Assembly (NCBI GenBank): GCA_033675265.1
Contig: JAUJYZ010000996.1
Coordinates: 45,001-109,000 of the forward strand
Direction of reading: 5' to 3'
Origin: Actinostola sp. cb2023
Lineage: Eukaryota; Cnidaria; Anthozoa; Actiniaria; Actinostolidae
DNA length: 64,000 nt
Under the pieces are notes generated by a model that did no database searches, was not told where the DNA came from, and saw nothing but the letters and a program-made list of their open reading frames with translations. The position numbers were made by a program, and so were the translations under genes. Of this stretch, positions 6,001 to 63,478 are shown one piece after another (within the stretch, counting starts at the first letter, position 1; each line of letters opens with the position of its first letter).

Positions 6001-9000
6001 AACGGAGCACTGATAGAAAGAGTAAAGTGCGCACCGTCGGCCTCAGGTTTGTCAGTTGAATTACTGTTACGAGTTACCAACGTTAAATAAGGTTGCTTTA
6101 AATACCTGTAAAACGGAGCACTGATAGAAAGAGGGGAGTAAAGTGCGCACCGTCGGCCTCAGGTTTGTCAGTTGAATTACTGTTACGAGTTACCAACGTT
6201 AAATAAGGTTGCTTTAAATACCTGTAAAACGGAGCACTGATAGAAAGAGGGGAGTAAAGTGCGCACCGTCGGCCTCAGGTTTGTCAGTTGAATTACTGTT
6301 ACGAGTTACCAACGTTAAATAAGGTTGCTTTAAATACCTGTAAAACGGAGCACTGATAGAAAGAGGGGAGTAAAGTGCGCACCGTCGGCCTCAGGTTTGT
6401 CAGTTGAATTACTGTTACGAGTTACCGACGTTAAATAAGGTTGCTTTAAATACCCGTAAAACGGAGCACTGATAGAAAGAGTAAAGTGCGCACCGTCGGC
6501 CTCAGGTTTGTCAGTTGAATTACTGTTACGAGTTACCAACGTTAAATAAGGTTGCTTTAAATACCCGTAAAACGGAGCACTGATAGAAAGAGTAAAGTGC
6601 GCACCGTCGGCCTCAGGTTTGTCAGTTGAATTACTGTTACGAGTTACCAACGTTAAATAAGGTTGCTTTAAATACCTGTAAAACGGAGCACTGATAGAAA
6701 GAGGGGAGTAAAGTGCGCACCGTCGGCCTCAGGTTTGTCAGTTGAATTACTGTTACGAGTTACCAACGTTAAATAAGGTTGCTTTAAATACCTGTAAAAC
6801 GGAGCACTGATAGAAAGAGGGGAGTAAAGTGCGCACCGTCGGCCTCAGGTTTGTCAGTTGAATTACTGTTACGAGTTACCGACGTTAAATAAGGTTGCTT
6901 TAAATACCCGTAAAACGGAGCACTGATAGAAAGAGTAAAGTGCGCACCGTCGGCCTCAGGTTTGTCAGTTGAATTACTGTTACGAGTTACCAACGTTAAA
7001 TAAGGTTGCTTTACTTTACTTTACTTTTTGCAATGTTTAGAATACTACCTTATATGGCAATGTTCTAATAGGTTTACCTGGTCCGCAAAGTTGACAAGAT
7101 CTCTTGCAATTTTGTGACATGTAGTCAGGAAGTCTTGTACAGTCACCTTTTCCCATCCATGCAACACAGTGCCCTTCGTTCAGATCCACACATTTCTTTG
7201 TATTATCTACAAATCACGTGGTAATAAGTAATATTTTATTTGCCATTTCTTTGTATTATCTACAAATCACGTGGTAATAAGTAATATTTTATTTGCCATT
7301 TCTTTGTATTATCTACAAATCACGTGGTAATAAGTAATATTTTATTTGCCATTTCTTTGTATTATCTATAAATCACGTGGTAATAAGTAATATTTTATAT
7401 GCCATTTCTTTGTATTATCTACAAATCACGTGGTAATAAGTAATATTTTATTTGCCATTTCTTTGTATTATCTATAAATCATGTGGTAATAAGTAATATT
7501 TTATTTGCCATTTCTTTGTATTATCTATAAATCATGTGGTAATAAGTAATATTTTATTTGCCATTTCTTTGTATTATCTACAAATCACGTGGTAATAAGT
7601 AATATTTTATTTGCCATTTCTTTGTATTATCTACAAATCACGTGGTAATAAGTAATATTTTATTTGCCATTTCTTTGTATTATCTACAAATCACGTGGTA
7701 ATAAGTAATATTTTATTTGCCATTTCTTTGTATTATCTACAAATCACGTGGTAATAAGTATTATCCTATACATATTACATCTCAGCCAATCAGAGCTCAC
7801 CATTTCTATGAAATACAGAGCGGTATTTCATAGTTTTTTCTATGAAATACAGAGCGGTATTTCATAGTTTGAATTAGCCAATCAAAACGTTGTAAATTTT
7901 AATTTTTCATCGGTAATATGTATAGGATAATATGGTTATTCCATGGTTTTCTATGGAATACGGGCGGAAATTTCACTAAAAAATTATATTATTTAAGTAT
8001 ACAACTCGCCTAAAGACTCGTTGTATACCAAATAATATATTTTTTTCGTGAAATATCCGCCCGTATTCTATAGAAAACCATGGAATAACCAATAAATATT
8101 TTATTTGCCATTTCTTTGTATTATCTACAAATCACGTGGTAATAAGTAATATTTTATTTGCCATTTCTTTGTATTATCTACAAATCACGTGGTAATAAAC
8201 AATTATTGGACGAGGTTGAACAAAATATCGTGATTTGTCAGTGTCTCGCATAATCTCGCAGAACAATTATTAATCTGCTCGCCACTGACAAATCACGATA
8301 TTTTGTTCAACCTATTCCAATAATTTGTACTTATTGTCTGAGTGGGAGGGCGGACGGGAAAATCATTTGGCTCGAGGTCATGCCGTACGGAACGAGCGCA
8401 GCGAGGTCCGTACTAAGACTAATAATAAGAAGAAGAAGAAGAAGAAGAATGACTAATAACCAAGGACCAAATATTTTCCCGTCCGGCCCGACCTAACTCA
8501 GTCAATAAGCATTTTATCATATGACCCAGTTTTTTGTTACAAAAACGTATGGAAAAAAAACCCTGTAAAACAAATAAATATAGCGCACGGAAACAGATAT
8601 AATTCTAGGTTGGTCCGTCTTTTCCAATGTTTTTATTTAGAGCGCGCGAGTCGTGAAATACGGGTCATATGATAAGCTAAATATGCACTTACGTCCTTTT
8701 CTCTTGCAGAATCTGCAGCTCCAGGGACAATTCTTTTTCATTACATCAAACTTTTTGAGACACTGTCCATCGTCGGCCAAGTCCTGACACTTGTTGCGAC
8801 GGTCTTTACAATCTTCGGGTTTGATCTCCACTAAAATACAAATGTTGGACTATTTTCTTAGTTTTCTCTTCTTTTTTCTTGTCTATCGGTTCTTTCTATT
8901 ACTTACGGCTTTTCCAATCAACGTCTTCTTCGCGCATGGCTGCCATAGTGGAACCGCTGTCGTCACCACTATCACTACCGCTGGCACTCATGTCTAAATT

Positions 9001-61638: not shown

Positions 61639-63478
61639 TTATTCCCTGGCAAAAACAGTGTCTCCTACTTTAATCACCCCTTCTTTATCAACTGCTGCAT
61701 GAATCCCAAAGAAAGGCGAATCTCCAAATCGTTTATCTCTGTTTTCAGGTAACCTTGTTCTAACAAAATACAGATCGTATTAAATGTGTCAAGTTTGTAT
61801 TTTACCTGGATATGAATTTCCAATCAACTGTACCTTTTCAATGTTGCAAGAGGTTCCTTCCCTGTTTTTACTCCAAGATCTGGATCAATTGTAGTCATTA
61901 CACACCTATAGTAAGTAAAACAGCACCAAGCATTACTACTAGTTGCAATAACCTAATCAATCATTAGTGTACCTGTCACAGTTCTTCATGCACCTAATCA
62001 ATCATTAGTGTACCTGTCACAGTTCTTCATGCACCTAATCAATCATTAGTGTACCTGTCACAGTTCTTCATGCACCTAATCAATCATTAGTGTACCTGTC
62101 ACAGTTCTTCATGCACTTAATCAATCATTAGTGTACCTGTCACAGTTCTTCATGCACCTAATCAATCATTAGTGTACCTGTCACAGTTCTTCATGCACCT
62201 AATCAATCATTAGTGTACCTGTCACAGTTCTTCATGCACCTAATCAATCATTACTGTACCTGTCACAGTTCTTCATGCACCTAATCAATCATTACTGTAC
62301 CTGTCACAGTTCTTCATGCACCTAATCAATCATTAGTGTACCTGTCACAGTTCTTCATGCACCTAATCAATCATTAGTGTACCTGTCACAGTTCTTCATG
62401 CACCTAATCAATCATTTGTATACCTGTCACAGTTCTTCATGCACCTAATCAATCATTAGTGTACCTGTCACAGTTCTTCATGCACCTAATCAATCATTAG
62501 TGTACCTGTCACAGTTCTTCATGCACCTAATCAATCATTAGTGTACCTGTCACAGTTCTTCATGCACCTAATCTCAACATCATTTACTTTAAGCTGCTTC
62601 CAATTATCCTGAAACATCAATAATTTAATAAGTAAATAATTAACAAAGCAAACAAACAATAATTCAATATTATCCTAACCTCATCAAAAGTCTTGGTACC
62701 GTTTATGATCACATTGGGTCTAAACCTTGCCATAGTAATAGGAGTGTCCAGCTCATTATTCAAAGCAGCAAGGGCTTCTGTCGTAGTGACCAACAATGGT
62801 GCAAAGTCTCCAAATCCATGCTGTGATAAAACAATCATGACTGATCAGGGACGGATCCAGAGATTTTGCAAAGGGGGACATTGGTTTCAGCCAAATTTTA
62901 TGTAAATATATATATTTTTTGGCAAAAAAGGTATTTGAATTTACAAGGGGGGGGGGGGGGGGGGGGGGGGGGGGGGGACATGCGCCTCCTTCGCCCCACC
63001 CTAAATCTGCCCCTGCTGATAAGTGACACATTTATTTCATCATCCTAATAAGCCAGTTCGAAGTTTAAGAATAAGGTTCAGTGCGCATGCGATTTTATCC
63101 CGAATTAATCACCTTCTTTTGTTATTTAAAAATAATAAAAATAACACAAACGTTAACAAAAGAAGGTGATAAATTCGGGATAAAATCACATGAGCACTGA
63201 ACCTTATTCTTAAACTTCGAACTGGCTTATTCACAATATATTTAAGAATAACTACAGTTCTTTACTATACTCAACTATCCTTTATATGTAATACCTATTA
63301 CTGAACACAACCATCAAGTGGTGTATTACCTTGTCGTCAGGTTTGGCAACATCACCCCAAATTTCATCATTTGCTATAAATCTAGGTTTTGTCATGTAGT
63401 AAAGTTTACATCCAGGTTTATTCAGGTACTTGGATAACCATGCTGCAGCTTCCTGCCCAGCTGATTGTCCTTCTCCAA
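61639..63478 (-). CDS. mARC-type MOSC-domain molybdenum enzyme (3' part)
   Basis: Five minus-strand exons: 63478-63330, 62820-62680, 62608-62547, 61905-61834 and 61759-61639 (stop). The translated part, about 181 residues, matches the C-terminal two-thirds of mitochondrial amidoxime-reducing component proteins: GEGQSAGQEAAAWLSKYL, an ALAALNNEL helix, FRPNVIINGTKTFDE, DNWKQLKV, then KNCDRCVMTTIDPDLGV and KEPLATLKR, and FFGIHAAV...IKVGDTVFARE. The Cys in DRCVMTT corresponds to the molybdenum ligand, so activity is plausible. mARC reduces N-hydroxylated compounds using electrons from cytochrome b5. The codon for that Cys follows an intron filled with a 41-bp array built from the preceding exon end. 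The first exon shown begins in phase 2, so the start lies beyond the right edge or in an unrecognised exon. Confidence 0.87.
61945..62572. repeat. 41-bp minisatellite built on an exon donor of the mARC gene
   Basis: About 15 units. On the minus strand each reads acceptor-like gattgattag, 21 nt copied from the end of the 62608-62547 exon, the donor gtacac, then cactaatg, which resembles a branch point. Units are nearly identical. Confidence 0.95.
62846..63015. mobile_element. hAT-like MITE with poly-G loop
   Basis: Ends CAGGGACGGATCCAGA and a diverged inverted CTGCCCCTG, with CTGAT on both sides (62841-62845, 63016-63020). A 31-base poly-G (62946-62977) lies inside. It is in a mARC intron. 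Confidence 0.65.
63047..63231. mobile_element. foldback MITE with about 70-bp arms
   Basis: Ends aataagccagttcgaagttt and its exact complement; arms extend over ttaagaataaggttcagtgc and cgattttatcccgaatt. It lies in a mARC intron directly after the hAT-like MITE. Confidence 0.9.

Follow-up and report, generated by a model that had tools for sequence, protein, structure and literature searches.

Minisatellites that span an exon-intron boundary of their own host gene have been described in amphioxus, where, in the accessible parts of the reports on these "mirages", they are found in Adh3, in the globin genes BflGb6 and BflGb9, in TnC and in PGBD5 (PMC3087553, PMC3902484). According to the available portion of the 2010 paper, lancelet mirages leave splicing undisturbed by RT-PCR, and their origin is there termed unclear (PMC3087553). 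Five comparable arrays lie in the 64,000-nucleotide stretch of Actinostola sp. cb2023 DNA analyzed here (the window; Table 1), each on a splice junction of its own host gene, as an earlier note on this DNA had claimed; the junctions are backed by gene models. As in amphioxus, so far as the accessible text of the two papers goes, the tandem repeats are minisatellite-like, take in the exon-intron boundary and sit in the intron, both 5' and 3' boundaries are affected (three donors and two acceptors here), and AG or GT is kept in many units (PMC3087553, PMC3902484). In the window GT or AG is kept in 106 of 106 tiled units, a set that includes four authentic copies and a few ragged edge units and that leaves outside it the diverged authentic TNF-receptor copy and a partial Arpin copy near 44188-44205. 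The normal exon is still used in amphioxus, as the same partial text has it (PMC3087553, PMC3902484), whereas exon use here is predicted from the DNA. The host genes differ, five cases fall within 64 kb here, and the units number up to about 45 as against 3-6 in what is described of BflGb6.

In all five arrays the repeat unit spans the exon-intron boundary of the host gene, the extra copies are intronic and the coding exon is intact, as judged by gapless protein alignment (mARC, TMED10-like), by equal spans in a Pfam alignment (Arpin) or by domain and intron phase only (ShK, TNF receptor). The arrays are mirage minisatellites, a kind already known from lancelets.

Table 1. Positions of the junction arrays, two comparison arrays and the TMED10 paralogue in the window
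Feature	Position	Strand	Evidence
ShK gene A 53-bp junction array	7191..8198	-	TRF, unit tiling, inverted repeats, Pfam ShK
TNF-receptor 48-bp junction array	32255..34483	+	TRF, junction-unit alignment, Pfam TNFR_c6 and Death
Arpin 57-bp junction array	44075..44671	+	TRF, tiling, Pfam PF10574
TMED10-like 98-bp junction array, 23 copies	54413..56674	+	TRF, tiling, gapless junction in PDB alignment
mARC 41-bp junction array	61951..62575	-	TRF, tiling, array ends, gapless junction in PDB alignment
111-bp intronic array, ShK gene A intron 4, off junction (comparison)	4754..7013	.	TRF; intron 4033-7077
46-bp intronic array, TMED10-like intron 2, off junction (comparison)	52964..54110	.	TRF; intron 52890-54185
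TMED10 paralogue, head to head with TMED10-like gene	50560..52100	-	gene models, TRF

The exon-derived part of the units is 16-71 nt, and each junction has about 10 to 45 similar copies. In ShK gene A the units (53 bp, 16 exon nt) contain the exon 4 acceptor (GTAG/ATAATAC, the slash marking the junction, at 7207/7206); the array edge lies inside the exon at 7191, and two foldback elements at about 7759-8091 break up the array, which TRF gives as blocks 7191-7764 and 8095-8198. The mARC units (41 bp, 26 exon nt) contain a donor junction at 62547/62546, the Arpin units (57 bp, at least 16 exon nt) the exon 4 donor junction at 44095/44096, and the 98-bp TMED10-like unit consists of 27 intron nt and 71 exon nt on either side of the exon 4 acceptor junction at 56603/56604. 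The TNF-receptor exon 2 donor junction (32282/32283) is a diverged copy of the 48-bp unit (24 of 26 aligned positions identical, plus a 2-nt gap), a 14-nt spacer lies between this copy and the array proper (32303-34483), and TRF puts the array start 20 bp into the intron. The earlier note had the arrays beginning exactly at the junction; four begin within the exon instead. Its statement that they extend into the intron is true, but necessarily so, because any additional copy of a segment spanning a junction falls on the intron side.

When the array units were compared with all 72 annotated junction windows, the unit's own junction scored 35-100 and the runner-up 18-22. A self-similarity scan within 1.5 kb of the same 72 junctions found no sixth junction array: the five known cases score 41-80 and all other junctions at most 26, which is about the shuffled-control level (control maxima of 20-27 in the 16 rows shown), leaving 67 of 72 junctions with no array copy within 1.5 kb. 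With 22 hand-merged TRF arrays set against all 72 annotated junctions, the suspicion that arrays reaching into exons are simply easier to notice applies to a limited extent. A 22-bp array at 9247-9368 carrying CAGGTAAGG was considered and rejected as a junction array; it lies antisense to the adjacent ShK gene, beyond that gene's annotated exons. An Rfam scan gave no match at the gathering threshold, and a search of genome and viral contigs for loci that encode an Arpin relative yielded none that tblastn confirmed.

The junctions are predicted here from genomic sequence, and the arrays could in principle be an artefact of gene models or assembly, which we consider highly improbable. The mARC and TMED10-like proteins each align without gaps over the junction to a solved homologue, and Arpin residues 6-197 align to positions 33-224 of Pfam PF10574, spans that are equal in length. 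The ShK gene A and TNF-receptor junctions are supported by conserved domains (ShK; TNFR_c6 and Death) together with intron phase matches judged by eye. The array units differ among themselves, which also argues against an artefact; that GT and AG are present at 72 of 72 junctions adds weak support, because the gene models were built on that rule.

Is a mechanism that acts on splice junctions needed to explain the five arrays? We favor, with a probability of about 0.75, blind tandem duplication on which selection then acts, with the outermost copy used for splicing and no junction-directed mechanism. Short tandem duplications would arise regardless of gene structure, probably through slippage or through end joining at short direct repeats; the arrays would then grow and turn over through slippage or unequal exchange (turnover of units is visible inside the arrays of this one haplotype sequence). 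Selection would purge duplications that break the transcript, and three kinds would survive: in-frame exonic repeats, wholly intronic or intergenic repeats, and duplications that take in one splice junction and no more. Duplications of this third kind would be harmless if the spliceosome takes the outermost copy, beside the exon body (exon definition), so that the rest stays intronic. Splice choice, slippage origin and neutrality are the parts of this account that we infer; the anatomy of the arrays, the protein-level backing of the junctions, the intron lengths with the expectation from geometry, and the in-frame exonic repeats are shown. In-frame exonic repeats are expected from position-blind duplication plus selection, and the period is divisible by three in 17 of 17 exonic TRF rows (overlapping rows that come from two ShK genes only) as against 4 of 23 noncoding arrays (periods listed by hand, omitting some short rows, e.g. 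a 27-bp row at 42086, and a GTT-like array). That acceptors and donors are both hit also fits blind duplication, as does the ATTAGGT that flanks the mARC founder unit on both sides; on the other hand, clear founder microhomology is present in mARC only (by eye there is none in the TMED10-like array), which counts against it.

The sizes of the introns carry most of the argument. Minisatellites make up 11,847 of the 19,511 bases (61%) in the 34 annotated introns, so the claim that arrays lengthen introns holds. With arrays collapsed to one unit, 20 of the 34 introns are 64-92 nt long and 21 do not exceed 120 nt (median 83), and four of the five host introns collapse to 86-253 nt, that of ShK gene A being the long exception at 965 nt. 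Because most introns are 64-92 nt and the junction units 41-98 bp, a duplication inside an intron usually catches a junction: in a 75-nt intron, duplications of 41, 57 and 98 bp do so in 0.70, 0.85 and 1.00 of the tolerated placements, respectively, the geometric expectation being 2(u-1)/(I+u-1) for an intron length I of at least the unit length u. It is therefore close to expectation that 64 kb should hold several junction arrays. The 22 arrays (hand-merged from TRF, period at least 17, about 100 bp or longer) were reduced, by merging or cutting, to 19 independent ones, nine of them intronic, and among these nine, five junction arrays are seen where geometry predicts 2.5-3.2 (P 0.063-0.166), or 2.7-3.6 when conditioned on each host intron (P 0.08-0.23). 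Other array lists under the within-intron null give P 0.04-0.39; the extremes come from a stricter rule that drops the GTT-like array (P 0.041), which speaks against blind duplication, and from all TRF rows of period at least 17 inside introns (3.1-4.1 of 13 expected, P 0.17-0.39), where short intronic rows and the second block of the 46-bp array (52964-53399 and 53949-54110) were restored and the separate ShK block 8095-8198 stayed out. The within-intron expectation thus removes the need for a splice-junction mechanism or for selection of decoys, both of which the earlier note had put forward. We set aside the comparison of the four of 72 junction points that lie inside an array with the 61% of intron bases covered by arrays, as the length that an array reaches by expansion is a poor guide to its place of origin.

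Uniform placement over the whole window gives a different answer, and here the earlier judgment that five such placements by chance are unlikely stands (P 0.006-0.04). Seed placement that ignores intron structure (with an approximate correction for terminal exons) predicts 1.3-1.6 of 19 (P 0.006-0.015), and placement of array intervals, in which the ShK and TMED10-like intervals take in the stretches between their two blocks, gives a mean of 1.3 (P 0.041 for the four that pass a strict rule, 0.0078 for five). This excess weighs against blind duplication and arises because arrays concentrate in introns: 9 of 19 are in annotated introns, which account for about 20% of the noncoding sequence once arrays are collapsed (P 0.006), a density that the model leaves unexplained unless unannotated introns or transcription contribute. 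Both the excess and the density would be expected if duplication were targeted to transcribed exon-intron edges (through R-loops, polymerase pausing or breaks linked to the spliceosome, for example) and junction arrays were over-produced as a result. We think such targeting improbable, since among intronic arrays the number on a junction is near expectation (P 0.06-0.17), 67 of the 72 junctions lack an array copy nearby (above), and arrays are found outside annotated introns too.

Are the copies themselves maintained? Among internal units 3 of 151 exon-derived columns are variable versus 18 of 146 intron-derived ones (stratified P 0.0008; rotation test P 0.007-0.011), a difference not predicted by pure neutrality of the copies. 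The end units of every array were excluded from the test, as were three stray ShK units; the test is post hoc, having been picked after the column counts were seen, and rests on 21 variable columns, with P 0.053 without the TNF-receptor array. The lower exon-derived variability, the GT or AG in every tiled unit and the large share of intron bases in arrays would all suit selection that retains decoy copies, whether as reserve splice sites or for intron lengthening. That reading is very unlikely in our estimation, given the post hoc nature of the test and the consequences of using an inner donor, which brings an in-frame stop from the second copy onward in the TNF receptor and from the fourth donor motif onward in Arpin. 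With a weight matrix trained on the window, all 45 TNF-receptor units score below the real site (5.09 versus 8.88), as do 12 of 23 TMED10-like units, whereas most units of the other three arrays score at or above it (ShK 13 of 13, Arpin 9 of 10, mARC 14 of 15).

It is possible, if rather doubtful, that the authentic exon end takes part in exchange within its array and swaps sequence with the intronic copies, in which case the exon part of the copies would be under indirect purifying selection and could feed amino-acid changes into the protein. At one TMED10-like codon the exon and seven other copies read Leu-Pro, five of those seven lying within the eight units at the exon-side end of the array; Leu-Ala is kept in 15 of the 23 copies, and both the TMED10 paralogue and the solved TMED10 chain 21gl_D have Ala as well. 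The exon copy thus has a variant in common with adjacent copies; in BflGb6, by contrast, the cluster boundaries are reported, in the accessible text, to be excluded from homogenization. In Arpin, 6 nt are missing from the exon-derived part of one unit.

The AGGT model, in which introns are gained through tandem duplication of genomic sequence, is associated with Rogers 1989, Gao and Lynch 2009 and Hellsten 2011. As the accessible part of one paper describes it, the duplicated sequence holds splice signals and is tolerated since the extra copy is spliced out (PMC3443670), as we propose here; in contrast, the duplicated segment here holds an existing junction, and an existing intron grows where none is created. 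Could the arrays nevertheless be intermediates of intron gain, in which tandem duplication of AG/GT segments makes new introns? The mARC units contain ATTAG/GT and CAG/GT, and in the available text such gain is established elsewhere (PMC3443670) and proposed for mirages (PMC3087553). We regard it as extremely unlikely, on a comparison that covers the TMED10-like gene: its intron positions equal those of the paralogue, so the intron is older than its array, and the unit contains a single existing junction rather than a duplicated AGGT flanking a new intron. The intron lengths are 76, 417, 327 and 69 nt in the paralogue versus 81, 1296, 2341 and 68 nt in the TMED10-like gene; TRF finds no array of 100 bp or more in the paralogue (intron 3 has a 28-bp repeat of 2.7 copies), and this lack of a large array is in keeping with blind duplication. 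Human paralogues with internal tandem repeats, in the accessible part of their description, also have variable repeats at exon-intron boundaries (PMC2812944); the repeats there may cause novel introns or be retained, whereas the coding exon here appears unchanged.

Five independent junctions with about 10-45 copies each amount to a natural experiment on how the spliceosome chooses among near-equals (exon definition). The same experiment bears on intron growth from about 75 nt to more than 2 kb, and on whether the end of a coding exon can evolve together with a minisatellite. The window also indicates that, where introns are short, boundary minisatellites can do without a special mechanism, which offers a simple account of the lancelet mirages.

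Five minisatellite arrays in the window each contain a splice junction of the gene in which they lie, as the earlier note had proposed. When the array units are scored against all 72 junction windows of our gene models, they score 35 to 100 with their own junction and 18 to 22 with the runner-up. The TNF receptor array is the weakest case: the copy at the exon end has diverged, matching the unit at 24 of 26 aligned positions with a 2-nt gap, and lies 14 nt from the array proper. The same note's statement that every unit keeps its GT or AG is borne out by all 106 tiled units (ShK gene A 13, TNF receptor 45, Arpin 10, TMED10-like 23 and mARC 15), 4 of which are the authentic copies. 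A self-similarity scan within 1.5 kb of all 72 junctions found no sixth junction array. Two foldback elements interrupt the ShK 53-bp array, and a third lies beyond the split array.

Positions of the junction arrays and other features in the window
Feature	Position	Detail
ShK gene A intron 4 array	4754-7013	111-bp unit; higher-order period 338
ShK array	7191-8198	
Foldback 1 in ShK array	7759-7932	20-nt perfect terminal inverted repeats
Foldback 2 in ShK array	7933-8091	62-nt arms
Third foldback	8201-8325	
22-bp array	9247-9368	
G-protein gamma-like frame	18985-19200	single exon
ATTG array	22113-23730	about 158 copies; 100% matches
TNF receptor array proper	32303-34483	
TNF receptor frame change	37723-37745	
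Arpin array	44075-44671	
TMED10 and TMED10-like pair	50560-56920	head to head
TMED10-like array	54413-56674	
mARC array	61951-62575	

The five junction arrays are a true observation, of a kind already known. Minisatellites that span exon-intron boundaries in amphioxus are called mirages (PMC3087553, PMC3902484), and PGBD5 and TnC are among the further cases described in PMC3902484; related accounts include repeats at exon-intron boundaries in human paralogues (PMC2812944) and intron gain through tandem duplication (PMC3443670).

The gene models cover ShK genes A, B and C (the last partial), the TNF receptor, Arpin, V-ATPase subunit D, TMED10, its TMED10-like paralogue and mARC, with Pfam support for six modelled proteins. 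All 72 junctions have GT or AG, a weak check in that the models were built on GT/AG. The five array junctions are supported by protein comparison: mARC aligns without gaps across the junction with a solved chain named mitochondrial amidoxime-reducing component 1, and TMED10-like does so with one named TMED10; Arpin and Pfam PF10574 match over equal spans, and the ShK and TNF receptor junctions are based on domain matches and intron phase judged by eye. The reading frame of the TNF receptor also shifts from one open stretch to the next immediately ahead of the death domain; either a very short intron lies there, or the sequence contains an error, or the gene is broken. A single-exon reading frame downstream of a 50-copy ATT run resembles, by eye, a G-protein gamma subunit.

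Are there more such arrays than chance would place? The window (36% GC) has 22 listed minisatellites (TRF; period at least 17, length about 100 bp or more) covering 17,958 bases, or 28% of it, and minisatellites make up 11,847 of the 19,511 bases in the 34 modelled introns. In its short introns and base composition the window may resemble demosponges more than lancelets. An ATTG array lies near a TTTAGTTG array. The apparent significance varies because the null models differ. Placing units anywhere in noncoding sequence gives 1.3-1.6 expected junction arrays among 19 (P 0.006-0.015), and random whole-interval placement gives 1.3 (P 0.0078 for five arrays, or 0.041 for the four that satisfy a strict rule). 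Each array begins as a single duplicated unit, however, and the introns are very small: collapsing the arrays to one unit leaves 20 of the 34 introns at 64-92 nt, and in a 75-nt intron a 41-98 bp unit would include a junction in 70-100% of tolerated placements. Over all annotated introns, 3.2 of 9 intronic arrays are expected on junctions and 5 are seen (P 0.166), or 2.5 of 9 when at least 10 exon and at least 4 intron bases are required (P 0.063); conditioning on each host intron gives 3.6 (P 0.23), or 2.7 by the stricter rule (P 0.08). P is 0.11 (stricter rule, 0.041) with the GTT-like array left out, 0.29 (0.12) with a second 46-bp block and a 28-bp array added, and 0.39 (0.17) with further short intronic rows added (5 of 13 on junctions). 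The earlier claim that chance placement is unlikely stands under the whole-window nulls (P 0.006-0.041), but over the annotated introns five is close to expectation (P 0.063-0.166). Arrays are commoner in introns than elsewhere (9 of 19, P 0.006; "intergenic" stretches in these counts may hide unrecognised genes), so most of the apparent excess reflects this enrichment rather than a junction preference within introns, and unannotated introns could explain part of the enrichment itself. Short introns, together with the frequency of tandem duplication, largely account for the five cases in 64 kb.

When a duplication takes in one junction, a normal exon still adjoins the outermost copy. Splice sites are paired across an exon (exon definition), and such pairing would choose that copy. 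When the units are scored with a weight matrix derived from the window, the real site is equalled or exceeded by 13 of 13 ShK, 9 of 10 Arpin, 14 of 15 mARC and 11 of 23 TMED10-like units, and all 45 tiled TNF receptor units fall below it; strength alone thus cannot explain site choice in most genes. On reading through into the array, a stop precedes the second inner donor in the TNF receptor and the fourth inner donor motif in Arpin. ATTAGGT stands at both sides of the mARC founder unit, the pattern that slippage between short repeats, or their end joining, should leave. The exon end of Arpin has a short shared AAGGC, and by eye no shared short repeat bounds the TMED10-like founder. The 22-bp array, which has no recognised exon and lies upstream of ShK gene A on the other strand, has a unit that holds a strong donor-like CAGGTAAGG.

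Internal units vary by substitution in 3 of 151 columns derived from exons versus 18 of 146 derived from introns (P 0.0008, stratified), a post hoc comparison. A rotation test, in which the exon label is moved around the unit so as to allow for clustering, yields P 0.007 (0.011 with indels), and 0.008-0.053 when each array is dropped in turn. This does not fit simple neutrality, a lead rather than proof. At exon position 4 the authentic TMED10-like exon carries C (Leu-Pro), as do 7 further copies. Of these eight, six belong to the final eight units on the exon side, one sits deeper in the array and one at its far end. The remaining 15 of 23 copies have G (Leu-Ala), and Ala is also found at the corresponding site in the solved TMED10 chain and the TMED10 paralogue. 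The common Pro codon suggests sequence exchange between exon end and array, again a lead and not proof; it seems that this exon end participates in the turnover of the array, in contrast to amphioxus BflGb6, whose boundary copies are reported in PMC3087553 as excluded from homogenization.

TMED10 and TMED10-like have the same intron positions and very different intron lengths. The array effect on length is large: introns of 417 and 327 nt in TMED10 are 1,296 and 2,341 nt in TMED10-like. Exonic repeat periods are divisible by three in 17 of 17 TRF rows (overlapping, from two ShK genes only), compared with 4 of 23 noncoding arrays in a hand-made list, so it seems that duplication strikes everywhere and selection decides what is retained.
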